Shown in pieces: positions 13,950-24,416 of a stretch of 64,000 bases of DNA; the first letter of the stretch is position 1, and each line of letters begins with the position of its first letter. Origin of the DNA: Talaromyces rugulosus. Its lineage: Eukaryota; Ascomycota; Eurotiomycetes; Eurotiales; Trichocomaceae. The stretch is taken from assembly GCF_013368755.1 (NCBI RefSeq), contig NC_049563.1, positions 1,302,001 through 1,366,000 on the forward strand, in the 5' to 3' direction. Made by a program: the position numbers and the translations under genes. The notes under the pieces are model-generated. The model had not been told where the DNA came from and searched no databases. It saw only the letters and a list, made by a program, of their open reading frames with translations.

Positions 13950-15266
13950 ATGGCCAGCGCATATTCTCGTCTGCCGCCGGAGCTACTGCTAATGATTCTG
14001 CCAAATTTACCGGACCTTCCATCTCTTTATAAATTCATATGTGCATCCTCAATAGCGAGTGCTGCCTTTACCATCGATGCCGCCAATATTTTGAATGACG
14101 TTATTGAGCGATCTATCCCACACTTTAAGACTTTAGCACGCGTTATTGCAGTTATAGGCTCGTTGGATATACAGAGCAAGCCGAAAACATCGCGTTCAAA
14201 GCTTTTCGACTCGTTGATCGCCAAATATGCATCTCTACCTGAAGGCATGCTCGTGAATGACACATTAGGAGCACGGTATTTGTTGCTTACTGCTTATCGT
14301 GTCGAGCATCTTATGCATATCTGCATCACCACTCTCCTTCAGAATATTCATGAACATATATTTACCAGTCAAGTGGACGAAAACACGCCGTTTGATAAAT
14401 TGTGTAAATTAAAAAGTTTACGGCACGGTGTATTTTTCACACCAGCTGCGTGGTGGTCTCCGTCATGGGTTGAGAGATTTCGCGTTGAACGAGCTCTCTG
14501 GAAGTTGTTTATTTATTGGAATATCCGAACAATTTGTTGTGATAACATTCTTGAAGACGATCCTGGCTTGAGTCAGTACAACGAAAAGATCCTGGATATA
14601 AACTCGGACATTGGAGTGGAAAAAGGTCAAGACGGGGTGGGGCCCCGGGAAATAGACGAAGTAAATTGTGTCTCGGAGGCCATTCGGGAATTTCTCGATT
14701 GCAATCCAATGATATTTTTTACGGAATTATTTGCTCACAGACGTCAACTATGCATTGAAAAGGCCTGGTCCAAATGTTCACTCAGTCTGAACGAGACTGA
14801 ATCTTGGAGATTTGAAGAACCACAGCCATTAAAAGGTACTCGTGATGACCCTTGGGGCCAGGGTGCATGCTGGACCACCAAATCTAATTCCAAATTTAGT
14901 GAGTTTGGCTGGCGGTATTGGCACTCTTTTAATAGTGACAATTTGCATCTAGAAAGACATGATCTTTGGTTTCCTGATTACTTAGGGCTCTGCCTTTGGG
15001 ACTACAAGCGACTGCAGTATCTTGGATTAAATGAAACCAGCGCCAGCTCCCTGGATCATTTTCTGGGTCCACCAAGAGAGCCTGATATGAAATTCTCCTC
15101 TCCAAACATCTGGAAACGTTGGGTTGATTTATTTATTCATGAGTTGGCCAGATTACCAGGAGGTGGAAAGCAGAAGCTGTCGAAGGATTGCAAGGAACGC
15201 ATACGGAAATGGAAAGCTGCAGTGAGACTTGCGTCTAAGGATAGAGGTTTATCTAATACTGGGTAA
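13950..15266 (+). CDS. F-box-like hypothetical protein
   Basis: Single exon of 438 residues. I chose the ATG at 13950 because the open frame before it has only a TTG. The N-terminus, SRLPPELLLMILPNLPDLPS, then LYKFICAS, is a clear F-box-like helix set (LPxELLxxILxxLxDLxSL), which normally binds Skp1 in SCF ubiquitin ligases. The remaining protein, about 390 residues, has no repeat or domain I recognise; it belongs to the large and variable set of fungal F-box-like proteins. Trp-rich blocks (FTPAAWWSPSWVERFRVER, WRYWHSF) occur in the middle and end. Role and target are unknown. Confidence 0.75.
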   Translation: MASAYSRLPPELLLMILPNLPDLPSLYKFICASSIASAAFTIDAANILNDVIERSIPHFKTLARVIAVIGSLDIQSKPKTSRSKLFDSLIAKYASLPEGMLVNDTLGARYLLLTAYRVEHLMHICITTLLQNIHEHIFTSQVDENTPFDKLCKLKSLRHGVFFTPAAWWSPSWVERFRVERALWKLFIYWNIRTICCDNILEDDPGLSQYNEKILDINSDIGVEKGQDGVGPREIDEVNCVSEAIREFLDCNPMIFFTELFAHRRQLCIEKAWSKCSLSLNETESWRFEEPQPLKGTRDDPWGQGACWTTKSNSKFSEFGWRYWHSFNSDNLHLERHDLWFPDYLGLCLWDYKRLQYLGLNETSASSLDHFLGPPREPDMKFSSPNIWKRWVDLFIHELARLPGGGKQKLSKDCKERIRKWKAAVRLASKDRGLSNTG

Positions 15267-15548
15267 ATCTCGTACGACGATTCAACATTGAATTGATCAC
15301 CTGCATGGACCAGTCATGCCGAAAATATATCCTATATAATTCATTCAAGAATGTTTTACTGAGCGCTTTTGTGAAATTCTGTTCTTCAAGTATTTTAAAT
15401 GCAATGAAAGTTAATGTAATTTGTACCTATAAATTCTTAATTGTAGCTCAAACTTCTGTGTTCAAGATACTGTTTCATTACGATGTGTATTCATACCTGT
15501 TGATTAGCTAGATGCCCGTAATGTTTGATCTCATCTCGAGTCACCATA

Positions 15549-16244
15549 TCAGTATTTCTTTTTATGTGAAATTACTATATTTCGAAGCAATCCATGGTAT
15601 AAAGGGTCGATGCTTTTCGACCTCGTCGTCCCACCGTGTGAGATACTCTCAGCATTAACCTCACAGTGCTTAGGGTCTTCAACGGGGTCGTCTCCTTGAC
15701 TTTCAAAAAACGGATCTGCAATCCAAGGATGATTCTGGAGTCGACGAATCGACTCAATGTCTCCCGTACCATCATAAAGCCAGATGCCAACATCATAGCT
15801 TCTATGCCAATTAAACAAGCGCGATGTTGCAACCCCCGACAGCTCATCAGCAGCGTGCTGTTCCGCGTATATTTCTACAGAAGATCTTTGCATGAGAAAA
15901 GATTTCGATCTCCCTTTGATGTCGACATTTTTTGGAGGGGACTGAAAAAAAGGAGGGACTTGTTTGAGAAGATTTAAGAATGCATTCATATAGAACGGGA
16001 AAGTGTTAGAGCCTTCTAGGTGTGTTGAAGATGCATACCTCCAGTCATCGAATTTTGACTGAAAGCAGTCATTAAACTGCGCTGTTGATGGACAAACTCC
16101 GTCACCAGGGGACCAATCCACATCGAGGTCGCTGTCGGTCACATCTCTATAGTCGGATGGGCATTTGTATTCAGCACTCATGGAATTTTTCATTTGGGTG
16201 ACTCCGGTGATGGATGGAGGTAGACTTGAGCCTCCGCTTCCCAT
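15549..16244 (-). CDS. Hypothetical protein, unassigned
   Basis: Open frame of 231 residues starting MGSGGSSLPPSITG. I do not recognise the family. It has no obvious signal peptide or membrane segment; there is a Trp/Tyr-rich stretch (LFNWHRSYDVGIWLYDGTGD) and an acidic patch. An upstream exon ending near 16334 could be joined: a GTACGT donor after CAT AT and an AAG acceptor before CGGAGG keep the frame and would add residues such as FTQYCHNWCRVRMMGNEG, but no ATG starts that exon cleanly. The gene may be incomplete or a remnant. It lies between an F-box-like gene and the RiPP precursor; no functional link can be shown. Confidence 0.4.
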   Translation of the reverse strand: MGSGGSSLPPSITGVTQMKNSMSAEYKCPSDYRDVTDSDLDVDWSPGDGVCPSTAQFNDCFQSKFDDWRYASSTHLEGSNTFPFYMNAFLNLLKQVPPFFQSPPKNVDIKGRSKSFLMQRSSVEIYAEQHAADELSGVATSRLFNWHRSYDVGIWLYDGTGDIESIRRLQNHPWIADPFFESQGDDPVEDPKHCEVNAESISHGGTTRSKSIDPLYHGLLRNIVISHKKKY

Positions 16245-16931
16245 GATGATCGTATAGGTTGTTAGTGTCGTCGAATGAGCTGTTGTTCAATAGGGTGTGG
16301 TGGTGTATCGGTTGAAAAGGGCGGTGAAACGTACATATGGGGGTGAAGCTGCCCTTCATTTCCCATCATGCGAACCCGGCACCAATTGTGGCAGTATTGA
16401 GTAAAACAATAGAACACATCATTCGCCTTGGGTATTGCATGAAACGTTCCTAGAATTTCACCATCAAAGGCCAAGGGCAGGAAGGCAATCGGTCAGGTGA
16501 GATAAGTTAGTCTACATGCAACATCTAATTAGTTCTATTATCTAATGCATATATCCAAGATATTATAACTTAGTGTGGAGAAAAGTCATTGATCATATTT
16601 AGACAAGTTTCGTTTTTCTCCGCCACTATTATTAGAAGTTATCGTCTGCGTAGAACGTTTATCTTAAGTTATCTATTGTTACAATATCGCCTTCATGCCC
16701 AAAACGTTCTTACGAGGAGCTAGTAATCCACAAGGTCACCCTCTGTAGATTTCACATATTTGCCGCTTAATTGCGGGAGATAAAAGCATCTCCTACTCGA
16801 TTGATATTCTCATTAAACAAATACATGCAATACGGTGGAGTACTCCACTACTAGCAAAACTAAATCCTCTGAGTCTTTATGTAGACTCCGGAATAATTTT
16901 GTAGATCTATAGATTCATCCACGTGGGAGAC
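16245..16931. other. Intergenic, possible upstream exon of the unassigned gene
   Basis: Bases 16335-16474 could hold an extra coding exon of the minus-strand ORF below it. The rest is AT-rich, and includes the 3' flank of the RiPP precursor gene. Nothing else is seen. Confidence 0.4.
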
Positions 16932-17512
16932 CTAGATCTTTTTCTAAAATGTTCATTAGTAGAGGTAACAGAGCTTTCACACATGAACCTTACGACTGTC
17001 CAGCGGCCACCTCCTCCGAAACCATCTACTTCAAGGTCTCCATCCTCCTCGCGTTTTTTCTAGACTTATATTTAGTGTATATATTCGGCAAAGGAAAGAG
17101 AGTCTCATCACTTACCACTGTCCAGCGACCACCTCCTCCGAAATTACCGCCGAAACCATCTACTTCAAGGTCCCCATCTTCCTCACGTTTTTTCTAATTT
17201 ACATTTAGTGTATAGATCCAACAAGGGAAAATTGCATCACTTACCACCGTCCAGCGGCCACCTCCTCCAAAGTTTCCCCCAAAGCCGTCTACTTCAAGGT
17301 CTCCATCCTCTTCACGTTTTTTCTAAGTTTATATTTAGTGTATATATTCCGCAAAAAAAAGTCTCATTACTTACAACTGTCCAGCGACCGCCTCCTCCGA
17401 AATTACCTCCAAAACCGTCCACTTCGGCATTCCCTGGATTCGGAGATGCCCTTGCTTCACTAATCGAAGCGAGAAAGAGTGTAACCCACGGAAGTATAGT
17501 TGATACTTTCAT
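16932..17512 (-). CDS. Secreted repeat precursor peptide, Kex2-processed RiPP (dikaritin-type)
   Basis: Five exons: 17375-17512, 17245-17322, 17116-17193, 16994-17059 and 16932-16943, all introns phase 0 and 50-56 nt, giving 123 residues. Residues 1-22 (MKVSTILPWVTLFLASISEA then RA) form a signal peptide. Then come four copies of EVDGFGG-NFGG-GGRWTV, the last lacking NFGG. Copies 1-3 are each followed by KKR, at 47-49, 73-75 and 99-101, then EEDGDL. KKR is a Kex2 site, so cleavage plus carboxypeptidase trimming would release peptides running from EEDGDL to RWTV. The protein ends KKI. This is the architecture of fungal RiPP precursors such as those of ustiloxin, phomopsin and asperipin. A UstYa-family oxidase gene diverges 871 bp away, which supports the call. 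Unlike the well-known cores it has no Tyr; Trp and Phe are the likely modified residues (inference). Plus-strand open frames over this region are antisense. Confidence 0.85.
16994..17425 (-). repeat. Tandem exon-plus-intron repeats in the RiPP precursor gene
   Basis: Four imperfect units of about 115-135 bp. Each unit is one coding repeat (78 nt, or 66 nt in the last) plus its intron; the introns are themselves alike (ATACACTAAAT near the acceptor). The array therefore grew by duplication of an exon with its intron. It is not a CRISPR: the units are contiguous and translate in frame. Confidence 0.9.
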
Positions 17513-18383
17513 TTCGGAGATCGAGTTGTATGAATTATGGATAAACGAAATAAAACTTAGCTATGTTGTAAGGTTAGATAAATCGGTATCTGCTGAGGGT
17601 TTTCCCAAGTTTATATACCTTTAGTTTCAGGATAGTTGTCGCCCCGAATCGTCATCCTCCTACGAAAGTAAAACATATAATTGCGTTATCAGCGTGGCTA
17701 CAAGCCTATTCCAGTGTCTCTACCAGGAGGATTACAGGTCACACGAGCACCTTCTATATATATGCTAGTGGTCAGCTCAATCGGGTCTGTTGAACCGCCA
17801 TGAATGCGATATAGTGATCACATGCATGTCTTATTAGCCGATATTAAAAAAAATTGACCTATTGTTATCAAGTAGTATACGCCTCTTGTTGGCTGATGTC
17901 GAATCCCGCCCTAGTTATTCCATTCATGACCACACTCTAGCCCAACCCATATTTTGTCAGAAAAGGTAAGCACCTAGGTATAATCCCCAAATACATGCAA
18001 AGAGATTACCCGCCAGATTGGGCTGTATCAGCAGAATTAATACTCCTTCTCTATTGTCAAGACGCTCAGTATTTTCATACGGATACTCGAGTGAAACAGT
18101 GACTGCTTACTTCGCCGCTGAAGAATTAGCTTTGTATCTTAGCTTGTAGCCCGTGCTATAGCCTTTTATCACGCTATAAAATTCTTGTTGATAACGGGAT
18201 TTAAGCCGATTTTAGCAATGTCATTAGTGCTTATGCCATAACACAATCGGACTCCGATTAAGCCCCGGCCAATAACCAGTCAGATAGCCATACATATACA
18301 AATTTAGAAGTCTGCGCGCGCAATACAACCATTTTAGGGAAAGTTCCGATCATATTCCTAACTTCTGGAATTGTTTCTTAATT
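17513..18383. promoter_or_regulatory. Bidirectional promoter region of the RiPP pair
   Basis: 871 bp between the divergent starts of the precursor (17512) and the UstYa gene (18384). A TATA-like run, CTATATATATGC, lies near 17753. No transcription-factor gene adjoins the pair, so the controlling protein is unknown. Confidence 0.5.
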
Positions 18384-19601
18384 ATGATAACAAAAAGCCT
18401 GCTCATCAAACCTTGTCGCTTGGCTTCAACTCTAGTCAAGATGAAAGAAATGGGCAGTAACACCTCACTGGAGCCGCTTTTGATGGAAGGCGACAGAGAG
18501 TGTGATAACAGCAGCCCTGACTTCAACGAGAAGAATAATCCTCGATCTCCATTTTTCACTCGCAAGTCCCTATCGGTGTTCATTGCGAACTTTCTTCTCC
18601 TCATTCTCTCAGTTGTGATCCTTGTTTTTGCGAAATTCGAGTCCTCCAGGCAATCGAGCCTTTGCACTAAAGAACATTCTTTCTACTGTATGTTATTTCG
18701 CTCATTCCATGGATGCTTTGTATATTATATATTAACTGACTGCTATTCATAAGCACCGGCATTGGAAGGGGTAAAGTATGAAAAGGTTCGATTTGCTGGT
18801 CTCCCGGAGTTGGATTCAAAATGGAGAGGGCCCCCTAGTTCTTTGCTTGATGAGGCATGGGACAACGTCACTTCCAAAGGTAGTCATCCTTTAAAAAGAA
18901 ATAGACATGGTGGGTTTGATAGCTAATATTTTCTCGACAGTCCCAGAGATCCCTGTTGATGAAAGTGTCGTTCATCGAACGCATAACCAACTCGATATAA
19001 ACTCTTTGACACGGTTTCCACCTGAGTTTGGAGGGCAGATATACAGTGAGGTAGAATGGAAACATCAGTTACACTGTCTGGTACGCGGTCTCTATTGGTT
19101 ACATTGTGCAAATAGTCGTTGCTAATACTGTGGATACATAGAATCTCATGCGGAAGTACATACATTTCGATTACTATAAAAATACCACGTCTCTATTCTA
19201 CGCATACTCTTCCGACGAGATTGTAAACCATTTGGGTATGTTCTGCCCCTTGTTCTCTTCCTAAAAAGAGAGAGACAAAAAGCCCTAGAGGCTAATTCGA
19301 TTTTCTATTCATACTAGCTCACTGCATCGATATGCTCCGTCAGTCTGTTATGTGTAACGCCGACACGGGGCTGATATTTTCATATTGGATCGAAGGACAT
19401 GATCACAAGCACGTCGATTTCAATAACGAGCATGTCTGTCGGAATTTTGAGAGCTTGCTGGAATATCAGCAGCAGAATGGTCACCTAATTGCACAGAAAT
19501 TGCTTGTTAGACATCCTGGGGCAGTCGATCTTCCTGACTATCCGGAAAATGTGACTCGACTAATGATGCGACCTGAAGAAAGAAACAAATACTATCTCTA
19601 A
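18384..19601 (+). CDS. UstYa-family (DUF3328) RiPP oxidase/cyclase
   Basis: Five exons: 18384-18687, 18754-18879, 18941-19080, 19142-19235 and 19318-19601, giving 315 residues; a later start at 18441 is possible. One membrane segment lies at residues 62-83 (SLSVFIANFLLLILSVVILV), after a polar cytosolic N-terminus. Two HxxHC motifs, HQLHC at 185-189 and HLAHC at 220-224, followed by IDMLRQSVMCNADTG, are the hallmark of UstYa proteins. These are thought to be metal-dependent oxidases that crosslink, cyclise or otherwise modify aromatic residues in dikaritins such as ustiloxin, phomopsin and asperipin. RGPPSSLLDEAW is also a family block. The gene diverges from the repeat precursor, so the two very likely act together in the secretory pathway. 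No second UstYa gene, tyrosinase or methyltransferase was found next to it. Confidence 0.9.
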
Positions 19602-21421
19602 CAGTAAAATTTACATAATTCATAGCTTATAATTAGATTTGCTAAAAGGGACGTACGGTATATCGATTTCTTCTAGGCTTGATACTGCAGTTTCTTATCT
19701 AATTGGTAGAGCAAGGCTCAATCTTCGCATAACCCATGAAATTGAAATCATGTAATTGACGCCGTGTTTCCTCATCGAAACAGTAGAGCTTCGGCAATAT
19801 TGCTGCATTATGAGTATTTTATTTGTTAATGTCGAGCGATTCAGAGCCCTGAGGAATATTTTTGCGTCTCTCAAGAGGGTCTCTAGCGATCGCTTGTTCT
19901 GTCGGCGATAATGCGTCAAATCTTTGAACGTAATAGAATCGGTGCTGACCAAGTTCTAATTAACGGGAAAGTTATGCATCGGCGATAGTACATGGGGGCT
20001 AAATTAGTACTGCCTGTATGAAGCTCATAACACTAAAAAATGGCATCATTTGGTCATGTTTTTATGCTGTTTGGCTGAAAAGGTCTCTTCAATTCCTTGG
20101 TGTCACTACTGATAGGTGACATGGTTATTTTCATTTAACAGGCGCTTCCTCTCCATCATCAGCAGATATGCACTGCCTTTTGTAAAACCAAATGTGCTGC
20201 ACTTTTTAGTACTTAGTACTCATTAGTTCTCGCCCTGAATATGATGTGTATCATGCAGGCGGTCATGATAATGTGAACCTAAGCAAGGGATTTATTGTAG
20301 ATTATATGCAAAATTTTCTGTGTCTACTCATTATATTCTTCCTTCATTCAATTTTATCCAATACGTTCCTTTATCATCTTCATGCCTGTTTACATGTACC
20401 CACATAAAATAGTGGGTCAGGGGATATTACGTAAACACGCAGGTGAAATCTCTTTTTTTCTCAGCCGAGATTTCTTCTTCAACAAATAAATTTGGCTGAT
20501 GATGTGAATAATGGAAATCATATGATAGGAAGAGACTGAATCCCATTGGGGTCTTGATCTTAACAGAACCATCTACTGAGGCCAACCTTTTCCCATCCAC
20601 TCATAACCTTCAATGTTGAACGTTTGTGACATTGCACTTGCTATAGGTATCTGATTGCTCGACTGCGTATCAATAAGTTCTATATATCTTTCCAATAGAT
20701 GCTAGCTACTATCATAATTAAGCAATCTGGTTTCATTTTTTTGAAAATTTTAATAGAACAAGTCTCTAATTTTATGTTATTTTCTAAAGTTGGCTGATTG
20801 TTATGGTGGCGCGGACTTGGAGCCGACTCGGCGCATCTAATCCTTCATTTTAGTATGAGGATACATTCTAGTTGTAGAGTGAGGCGATCCATTAAGTGAT
20901 GAAAAAATTGGTAAAAATCACCGTCCGCTCTCAACTGTACAAAAAAACGCCTGGTTCATCCAACAATCTTTCAACCGGCGTGACCGGATTTTAATTGTCA
21001 AATCTTGGCAAGGATCAATCATCGCCGTCCCATTGTTAAAATATTAATTAGAGGTGATAAGTATCCTAACTAATAGATATTCTAATTTAATAGTATAATA
21101 CTATAATAACAAATCTAAGCTATTCTAGTCTCTATTACGGCTTACACTAGTTAAGTGGCGGCCAGCGCTACTGAGCTAGATACATGTTCCTTTGAATGTT
21201 GGTTGTATTGGATTACAAGTATTTAGTCAGGGACCGATACCCGTTCAGCTGAAAGATGGTATATCCCCCCCCCCCCCCCCCCCCCCCCCCCCAAAAACGA
21301 GTGAGCGTCACAATTAAGTGATAACTCTTGCTCCAGAAGAAACGCATACATACAGTCCTACCAACCTCTGTTTGGTATTTAGTCTTCGGTCCGGATATAT
21401 ACCACCTCAAGATCCCAAAAC
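19602..21421. other. AT-rich accessory intergenic DNA
   Basis: About 1.8 kb with no gene I can support. A minus-strand open frame at 19695-19952 lacks any family pattern. The most notable element is a 28-nt poly-C run at 21265-21292. Sequence composition differs from the housekeeping parts of the window by eye. Confidence 0.5.
21265..21292 (+). repeat. Homopolymer C28
   Basis: An uninterrupted run of 28 C lies 129 bp upstream of the kinase start codon. The length is prone to replication slippage and to sequencing error, and the G-rich complement could form a G-quadruplex. Confidence 0.9.
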
Positions 21422-22476
21422 ATGGTTTGGCATGCTTCGTGGGCGCTAATCGGCGTTCTTGTCACCATTATTGTCCCGTCTACCGAATCCAATATCCAAT
21501 TCGGATGCACTGTCCATCAAGAAGAAAGGAGAGAAAGAGTGCAACAGATTCTTGCTCCAACATGTGCCGTAGGAACTTGCGACGGCCAATACCGTTATCT
21601 GAAACAGGTGGGCAAGGGTTCGTATAGTGCCGTGATAAAAGCACAGTCATCGACCACTGGCGAGCTTGTTGCCATCAAAATCTTCGACAAAAAGGAAGAC
21701 AAAGAATCCTTCGACGAGTACATTGAGAAAGTCCAGTCCGAGTTTGATTTAGCGTCTCGATTGATACACCCTCATATCATCCGATCGCTCGAACTAAGAC
21801 AGGACGAGGAAACATGGTTATATGTCATGGAGTATTGTGATACTCAATTGATTGCGAAACTGCTCTCCCAAAGCATGACTCAAAACGATATGTCAGACAT
21901 ATTTGTGCAACTTTTGAAAGCTGTACAGTATCTACATACGAGAGAAATTGCGCATCGTGACATCAAAATCCACAATATAATGCTATGTAGCGACGGGAAC
22001 GCCAAGTTGATTGATTTTGGCGAAGCATTGAACGTGACTCGGGCTGAAGATGGGAGCACAGGTTGGTGACATATTTGCCGGTGCCATGCGCATCCCAGTA
22101 TTATGAAGAAAATTTGGATATTGTCCCCTACTAACTTAACTTTTTAGACTTTGTCGGTACATACGAATATATAGCTCCTGAAGTGTATAGGACAGAGCCA
22201 TATAACGCTTTAAAGGCGGATGTCTGGGCATTAGCCATCCTGTTTACGGCACTATCGCTACAGGAATATCCCTGGCAGCGGGCTAAGATGACCGACTCTA
22301 GTTTCTCTGCCTTTGCCCAAGACCCATACGACACTCTCTTAGTCCGTCTTCCAATAGAGTCGCACCGTGTCATCTCCCATATGCTGAAGATTGAGCCTAC
22401 TAGCCGGGCTGATCTTGATGATATATTTGATGATCCTTGGATCCAAGAGGCCAGCAAGAACTACATGTATATTTAG
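21422..22476 (+). CDS. Serine/threonine protein kinase with hydrophobic N-terminus
   Basis: Exons 21422-22061 and 22148-22476, joined in phase 1, give 322 residues. The catalytic core looks intact: Gly loop GKGSYSAV, VAIK lysine, catalytic loop HRDIKIHNIML, metal-binding IDFGEA, GTYEYIAPE, and DVWALAIL. The N-terminus, MVWHASWALIGVLVTIIV, looks like a signal peptide or membrane anchor, which is odd for a soluble kinase; an alternative is that this segment is 5' leader and a first exon is missed, but no later Met precedes the Gly loop. HAL4/NPR1-type and other fungal kinases share this core; I cannot place it more closely. It stands alone in an accessory region between the RiPP pair and a dehydrogenase. 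Confidence 0.8.
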
Positions 22477-22790
22477 TGACTGGAAAGTTTATATATCAAT
22501 AATTTAGAACTCTGTACATCAATCAATAATTACAAATATCTAAGCTAGTAAAGCGTGAATATAATGAATATGAAAGTGTCCTTACTAAAAATATGGATTA
22601 GAAAAGAAACATGTGAATGTATGAAAAATTCATCTAGAAATATCCTTAATAACAACAGCCAATTCATCACGCGAGCTCTATGCCCCTACTAACCTATTAG
22701 TACTTTATCCACAATTAGGACCAATTTTTCTGAATTTAATTTAGCCCTTCTCAATCCCCAATTGAAACTTTCACGGCCACCCTAGTTCAT
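22477..22790. other. Intergenic, convergent gene ends
   Basis: AT-rich 3' flanks of the kinase and of the short-chain dehydrogenase. Nothing else seen. Confidence 0.6.
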
Positions 22791-23917
22791 TTAGAGTCTT
22801 CCAGCATGGATCCCACCGCTAATGACTAGATTACTGCCGGTCGTATATAGCGATGCATCTGACAAAAAGTAGACAGCGGCACCTTTTAGATCTCTGCGGT
22901 CGGCCATTCTCCCCATCGGCACTGCATTCCTCATGACAGTCTCCAGCTCCGGGCGAGTTTTCCACTGACTGACTGACATGTCGGTAATGGTGTGGCCCGG
23001 GGAGATCATATTGACACGAATTCCCTTCGGCGCCAGCTCAACCGCTAGGCTGTGAAGAAGACCCTTGGCTGCACCCTTGGATGCCGAATAGGCTGTTAGT
23101 CCCTGACTCTCAACTCCGCTATCTGTCGCGATGCTCCCGATGAGAATAACGCTGCCCTTTGGTGTGTGATCATCGGGTCCCGGCCGGTTTTGTAGCATCG
23201 CTTTGACGGCTAGTTGTACAGTGAAAAAGAGTCCAACGCTCTGTATATTTGTTATTTGGAGGTTCACGAGATAGAAGTTGATCTACACGTACATTAACCA
23301 TTTGCAATCGAACCACCTCTTCCCATGTATGTTCGACAAATGTCTTTTCGACGCAGATTCCAGCGCAAGCTATCCTGTTGAAGCCTTAGTACTGCTACGT
23401 AAACCGTGCTCTGATACTAGAAAAAGAGAGAAAAAAGCCATCCTAACAAAATGAAAAAGGGAAACCTACACGCCATCAATCCTTCCAAAATCCGACAAGA
23501 TTTGGTCGAATGCTTTTGTCAATAGCGACTCTTGGGCGACATCGGCGCTACATGGTACGGCCTTTATGTTAACAATAGCCAAGAATGGATTTGTTTATAT
23601 TTATAGAATGTCACACCAGAAATATTTCACTTGTATCTTCTCGTGCATGCCTTGGATCTCTTGCAGTTCTGGATGGGGTATCTCCCGCTGACCGATTACC
23701 GCGACATGGCTACCGAACTCTGCGACGGCCTTGACCAAAGCGAGTCCAATACCATCTCCACCTCCTGAAAGACAATGAGCTTTAATTTGTAGCTGTTTAG
23801 AGGGTTGTACTTAACTGTGATTACCACCACTTTGTCGTGTAGACTGTGGAAATCTTGGAGGGAGCTAGTAGTTTTGTATGATTCGAGAGATCGTTGAAGA
23901 GCCGATTGAGAAGCCAT
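22791..23917 (-). pseudogene. Short-chain dehydrogenase/reductase with an apparent frame break
   Basis: Classical SDR fold of about 285 residues: cofactor motif GGGDGIGLAL, IACAGI (NAG-like), Ser in LIGSIA, the YSASK pair Tyr/Lys, and RVNMISPGHT. Exons read as 23816-23917, 23631-23764, 23470-23561, 23293-23374 and 22791-23240. The last four join cleanly. The first (ending KVVVIT) does not: every nearby GT donor falls in phase 0, whereas every usable acceptor before GGGDGIG needs phase 1. The sequence reads ACAGTTAAG where ACAGGTTAAG would splice in frame. Either one G has been lost, or a non-canonical site is used, or the assembly is wrong. The rest shows no stop codons, so any damage would be recent. 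Substrate is unknown. Confidence 0.6.
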
Positions 23918-24416
23918 TATTTACCCAATAGATTATGTTCCGGTCTAATTGGATTTAATAGTACAGGCGTATTCCGACCAATAAATTAGTTATTACCAGA
24001 AACTGTTGAAGTATGCGGCATCGGCTATATCGGATATTTCCGTTTTTGTTCATTCCAGTGATGCCACATATGTTCGGAGATAGACTGAGAGACTTTAAAT
24101 GTTCGTAAAAAGTCAATCCTTAAAATGTTTGTAAGGATTACAAATCGAGCGGAAATTTAGGTGGAAAGAAAGATGAACCCCTTAACGAGCCGGAACAGAT
24201 CCGATGATGCCGAGGAAGCCTGTCTAGACCACTTTTCAAATTAAGCCCTAGTGTCAAGTCTGCAGATTCAGCCCCCTCATTAATAAATGAGAGAGCAATG
24301 CAACTTATGGTCGATTTACGTTTGCATTATTCTTCATCGTGCGCCTTTCTCTACGCAACCCTCCATCAAAGCTCTCGGAGATCGAAAACACCCCAATATT
24401 CGAAACAGTGAGCATC
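23918..24416. other. Intergenic, divergent promoters
   Basis: Between the minus-strand dehydrogenase and the plus-strand SnoaL-like gene. An in-frame extension upstream of 24417 (from about 24339) is open but starts with a less convincing N-terminus, and is left as leader. Confidence 0.4.

Follow-up and report, generated by a model that had tools for sequence, protein, structure and literature searches.

The minus-strand gene between positions 17512 and 16932 of the 64,000-base stretch of Talaromyces rugulosus DNA analysed here (the window) encodes, with a probability that we put at about 0.78, a precursor for a secreted RiPP of the dikaritin type. This reading rests on the build of the predicted protein, in which repeats are separated by Kex2 sites, and on the presence of an adjacent, divergently oriented UstYa-family gene with a PF11807/DUF3328 match at E = 1.3e-50. 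A first-pass annotation had already proposed a RiPP precursor at this position; the proposal gains support from the Kex2-repeat build and from the UstYa gene next to it, which that annotation did not cite. Together, the precursor gene and the UstYa gene are the core of a dikaritin-type pathway.

Three-frame reading and joining of the open segments yielded a protein of 123 residues encoded by five short exons, all on the minus strand. Exon 1 (17375..17512) specifies the signal-peptide-like segment MKVSTILPWVTLFLASISEARA, followed by SPNPGNA and by repeat 1, EVDGFGGNFGGGGRWTV. Exons 2 (17245..17322) and 3 (17116..17193) each read KKR EEDGDL EVDGFGGNFGGGGRWTV and constitute repeats 2 and 3. Exon 4 (16994..17059) reads KKR EEDGDL EVDGFGGGGRWTV, which is repeat 4 without NFGG, and exon 5 (16932..16943) consists of the 12 nt for KKI-stop. 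The four introns (17323..17374, 52 nt; 17194..17244, 51 nt; 17060..17115, 56 nt; and 16944..16993, 50 nt, numbered 1 to 4 in the direction of transcription and lying on the same strand) are all 50-56 nt long, start with GTAAG, end with AG and are in phase 0. Introns 1-3 begin GTAAGT, have the branch-site-like CACTAAAT in common and finish with TTAG (introns 1 and 2) or CTAG (intron 3); intron 4 starts with GTAAGG, carries TACTAATG and finishes with TTTTAG. In the unspliced sequence the repeats fall in different frames with stops between them. Retention of intron 1 leads to a stop early in exon 2, retention of intron 2 to an in-frame stop at the end of that intron, and retention of intron 3 to a stop in exon 4. 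As intron 4 has diverged from introns 1-3, and as its retention would only replace KKI with a longer tail, this final junction is the least secure part of the model. Judged by its sequence, this is a real gene, and its layout, with each repeat on an exon of its own, is unusual.

All of the differences among the four repeat exons are silent, which argues that the reading frame is real and under constraint. The 16 variable sites all fall at third codon positions (16/16), and none of the six pairwise comparisons shows an amino-acid change. When 16 changes were placed at random on repeat 3, not one of 20,000 trials left every change synonymous, a large margin for a null that ignores transition bias and the shared history of the repeats. 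Introns 1-3 differ pairwise at 12/51, 5/52 and 9/51 aligned bases, gaps apart, and the exons at 8-20%. Per base, introns and exons thus change to a similar extent, and the constraint on the peptide is seen in the confinement of changes to silent positions rather than in slower change. At the DNA level the repeats are spaced 122, 129 and 130 bases apart, indicating that the unit that was multiplied is an exon plus an intron; the units would have arisen by tandem duplication of one exon together with its intron. A scan of the whole window, on both strands, for 5-residue words occurring at least three times in steps of no more than 400 bases met this locus and no other.

The N terminus of the precursor is hydrophobic (over residues 5-15 the mean hydropathy reaches 1.89) and bears an ARA-S motif, after the ARA of which the putative signal peptide would be cut by the (-3,-1) rule. 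SPNPGNA comes next and precedes repeat 1, and KKREEDGDL precedes each of repeats 2-4. All four units end EVDGFGG(NFGG)GGRWTV, the absence of NFGG from repeat 4 amounting to a 12-nt in-frame difference. Three units are followed by KKR, and the fourth ends with KKI-stop. Trp and Phe are the only aromatic residues of the repeats, and no Tyr occurs anywhere in the 123 residues. With the basic residues removed, the computed [M+H]+ is 2349.064 for unit 1, 2370.03 (2370.027) for linear unmodified EEDGDLEVDGFGGNFGGGGRWTV (units 2 and 3) and 1994.87 (1994.873) for linear unmodified EEDGDLEVDGFGGGGRWTV (unit 4). The KEP criteria of Umemura 2020 (PMC7329392) for Kex2-processed repeat proteins ask for three or more tandem repeats, each 8 aa or longer and none above 100 aa, between KR, KK, RK or RR sites, and for a signal peptide by SignalP; the precursor has four such units, with KKR after three of them and KK after the fourth. 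The frame reading and exon joining bear out the coordinates, the strand, the 123 residues and the four repeats given by the first-pass annotation, and its remaining descriptions (a signal-peptide-like start, near-identical repeats with KKR after three, Trp and Phe as sole aromatics in a core without Tyr) agree with the hydrophobic N terminus and the translation. It had also named a match to a known non-RiPP repeat family as grounds for giving up its proposal; Pfam holds none, as the precursor has no match near the cut-off and only two sub-threshold, unrelated ones.

The UstYa-family gene lies on the plus strand at 18441..19601 (exons 18441-18687, 18754-18879, 18941-19080, 19142-19235 and 19318-19601) and encodes an intact protein of 296 aa. 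This protein has a single hydrophobic segment near its N terminus, by eye a probable membrane segment, and two HxxHC motifs, HQLHC and HLAHC, the latter formed across intron 4. An alternative upstream ATG at 18384 is possible, as the annotation of a relative in Talaromyces proteolyticus includes an N-terminal extension of this kind. When 19 relatives are aligned, with the window's own protein left out, 10 residues are invariant and 6 nearly invariant, and all of these, matched by eye, are kept in the window protein. Of the best relatives, a protein on a short contig matches at 67% over the full length. The T. proteolyticus relative, whose model stops short, apparently within an intron, reaches 83% over 69% of the query. 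Two further relatives are partial records, one from Zopfia rhizophila (58% over 68%) and one from Amniculicola lignicola (51% over 65%). A search by sequence returned no related solved structure at E <= 1. The UstYa gene and the precursor gene stand head to head, separated by 928 bases (17513..18440), or by 871 if translation of the UstYa protein starts at 18384; from its position, this intergenic region is a possible bidirectional promoter.

In the frames that were scanned, the neighbourhood of the pair held no recognisable gene for a peptidase, a tyrosinase or another RiPP tailoring enzyme. For tyrosinase (PF00264), 40 open-frame stretches, taken from 154 frames of at least 90 aa, gave no match at cut-offs of E 0.1 for some stretches and E 0.001 for the others. 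The protein encoded at 15549-16244, to the left of the precursor, was rejected as a cluster partner: its two matches with species names, which rank behind two others, are from Aspergillus tubingensis and Penicillium verrucosum, neither of which is among the named UstYa matches. Also to the left of the pair are a frame with a sub-threshold F-box match and proteins of the GRDP-like and BMS1/Tsr1 types. The right-hand side begins with a protein kinase gene with two exons (21422-22473), the open frame of which begins, by eye, with a signal-peptide-like segment. Beyond it, from 22.8 to 39 kb, come SDR, SnoaL-like, ALDH, ADH, cupin, FAA hydrolase, OYE and MFS genes; the segment 27696-39321 includes the ADH, the cupin domains, the FAA hydrolase, the OYE-type oxidoreductase and pieces of a TRI12-like transporter. 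The genes of this segment probably make up a set for the degradation of aromatic compounds, separate from the RiPP pair, and the 22.8-39 kb genes were set aside as tailoring candidates on account of this probable aromatic-catabolism role. An O-methyltransferase at 50.1 kb is too distant to be counted with the pair. The interval 14000-24000, which holds the pair, is AT-richer than the rest of the window, with GC at 0.40-0.44 in 2-kb steps and at 0.44-0.54 in all other steps.

A search of the 8000 candidates with most words in common with the precursor (about 68-215 residues long) gave no relative at E <= 1, and within the same genome the four repeat exons are all that matches it. Four strings taken from the repeat are absent from the open-access main texts searched; the proteins of the published survey sit in its supplementary tables. 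That survey (Umemura 2020, PMC7329392) reports 7878 Kex2-repeat proteins, 1758 of them with DUF3328 neighbours and 2560 standing alone without a homologue, and DUF3328 genes are most numerous in the place directly adjoining the Kex2-repeat genes, which favours the dikaritin-type reading. Since Kex2-repeat proteins with DUF3328 neighbours or without a homologue are this common, the window precursor is best seen as a new repeat sequence of an already known class. According to the same source, Tyr is present in 65.6% of DUF3328-linked repeat sequences, and W in 20.5% of them as compared with 24.5% of those away from DUF3328 (PMC7329392); for the Tyr-free window repeats, both figures count against the dikaritin-type reading. 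Two features of the window system are less usual, namely the gene with one exon for each repeat and an apparent make-up of two genes. In the open-access literature searched, no mention of a one-exon-per-repeat layout was found, which is weak evidence of absence. The layout may explain why such genes get missed, as no single open frame holds the repeats and no match turned up among database proteins.

The 35.76-Mb genome contains at least 43 PF11807 matches, which were grouped by hand into 25 places. Twenty-one of these, including the window locus, were scanned over about 8 kb or more (with a short gap at C1:6.627-6.634 Mb); the others are C2:1.859 Mb, covered for 3.2 kb only, and C2:1.383, C3:0.686 and C4:1.947 Mb. 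By our judgement, repeat precursors occur at 5 of the 21 places, window locus included; the four others lie within about 1-2.2 kb of UstYa genes, in support of the dikaritin-type reading. On the minus strand at C1:2033000-2041000 (L049; also L020), seven VEDYFIGAD units with KR between them form a putative ustiloxin-like repeat precursor; the UstYa match nearby, at C1:2036700, is about 1 kb away. The other arrays are on the plus strand: 14 KR-DELDGDLYNY units at C6:4386700-4396600 (L039, 7486-8026), with a UstYa gene about 2.2 kb away; six SIYTYGVTEYED-type units at C6:4883600-4893500 (L040, 8386-8767), with a UstYa match about 1.5 kb away; and eight ELYPAPDLGR units at C4:1849000-1857000 (L044, 5748-6195), with a UstYa gene about 1.7 kb away. 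The DELDGDLYNY units have the letters DGDL in common with the EEDGDL of the window precursor. Because the SIYTYGVTEYED-type units have a single Arg and no dibasic site between them, and the ELYPAPDLGR units have KR between some units only, these two arrays are a poorer fit to the Kex2 pattern than the window gene. Four other arrays were dropped: an Ala/Ser-rich threefold repeat (L007/L035), a further array in L035, one in L040 that has stops in every frame, and a short run of AYDAYD in L055. The four other precursors all have Tyr in every unit and all of their units in one uninterrupted frame; the window gene is set apart from them by its Tyr-free units and by its one exon per unit.

The repeats might instead give rise to linear, unmodified Gly-rich secreted peptides with a surface-active, signalling or cell-wall role, the UstYa protein being a coincidental neighbour or acting on another substrate. 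The Gly-rich units would suit such an unmodified peptide too, which counts against the dikaritin reading; moreover, 6120 of the 7878 Kex2-repeat proteins of the survey have no DUF3328 gene nearby (PMC7329392), several Kex2-repeat proteins are described as having linear unmodified products, and UstYa genes are many in this genome (the at least 43 matches in 25 hand-grouped places). We nonetheless hold this explanation to be unlikely, for the UstYa gene is divergent at 928 bases with no gene recognised between, and 25 places in 35.76 Mb put the chance of such a neighbour, on a rough estimate, well under 1%.

An alpha-pheromone precursor, described as likewise consisting of a signal peptide and of repeats with KR-type sites between them, is barely credible: no Pfam pheromone model matches the window protein, and its repeat is presumably unlike the alpha-pheromone cores. 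Furthermore, the mating-factor and pheromone repeat proteins of the survey have no DUF3328 neighbours, with three exceptions (PMC7329392). The AT-richer surroundings (14-24 kb, where 2-kb steps have a GC of 0.40-0.44) and the lack of recognised tailoring genes beside the pair would be in keeping with a silent or decaying locus whose genes are no longer expressed. This seems highly improbable in view of the intact splice sites and reading frames of both genes and of repeats that differ at third positions only.

As a dikaritin-type precursor, the protein would be taken into the ER by its signal peptide, to judge from the hydrophobic N terminus. The divergently encoded UstYa protein would then oxidise side chains of the repeats, by crosslinking, dehydrogenation or hydroxylation. 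Adjacency and the literature on DUF3328 proteins suggest this step: the cyclisation of ustiloxins, asperipin-2a and phomopsins is described as requiring such proteins (PMC7329392), and members of the family are described as taking part in chlorination, hydroxylation and dehydroamino-acid formation. Kex2 is predicted from the sites to cut after KKR, and Kex1-type trimming would leave units ending RWTV, the source of the final core. Our guess is that the core would be the C-terminal part with R-W-T-V, as Trp (i) and Val (i+2) are spaced like the Tyr and Ile of the ustiloxin core, Y-A-I-G. If Phe were the oxidised residue there would be a precedent in victorin; Trp is the bolder possibility, Tyr and Phe being the only residues described for UstYa enzymes in the literature examined. 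The pair may be a two-gene system made up of a precursor and one oxidase. It is rather doubtful that a single UstYa-type oxidase yields an indole macrocycle (for example Trp-Val, at the W-T-V end) with a core number that varies through splicing, a variation that could occur in frame since the internal cores are on phase-0 exons with lengths that are multiples of three. A Trp-to-Val indole macrocycle, if true, would be a Trp-crosslinked counterpart of the ustiloxins, and a crosslinked product would offer a direct test of whether a UstYa enzyme can use Trp.

Ustiloxin and phomopsin are described as likewise having a signal peptide, Kex2-cut tandem units and a UstYa-family gene near the precursor, UstA being accompanied by UstYa/UstYb and PhomA by five DUF3328 proteins as against the one UstYa protein here. 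Unlike these, the window precursor has no Tyr in its units, hence lacks the core Tyr crosslinked to Ile that marks their subgroup, and carries its units on separate exons; among the scanned frames, no tyrosinase was recognised. Asperipin-2a (AprA-AprY) likewise has, as described, a single UstYa homologue for its precursor, but its core, FYYTGY, is Tyr-based, and neither a reductase like aprR nor a transporter was recognised immediately next to the window pair. Epichloecyclins (GigA) share the signal sequence and four repeats with KR sites but are, by their description, Tyr-based cyclic peptides. Victorin is a Kex2-repeat dikaritin described as cyclised without Tyr, via a C-terminal Phe and an internal Leu; its core is unrelated to the window repeat, and victorin is chlorinated and has peptidases encoded in its cluster. 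A Tyr-free core is thus not unique to the window system, as victorin uses Phe and 20.5% of DUF3328-linked repeats have W.
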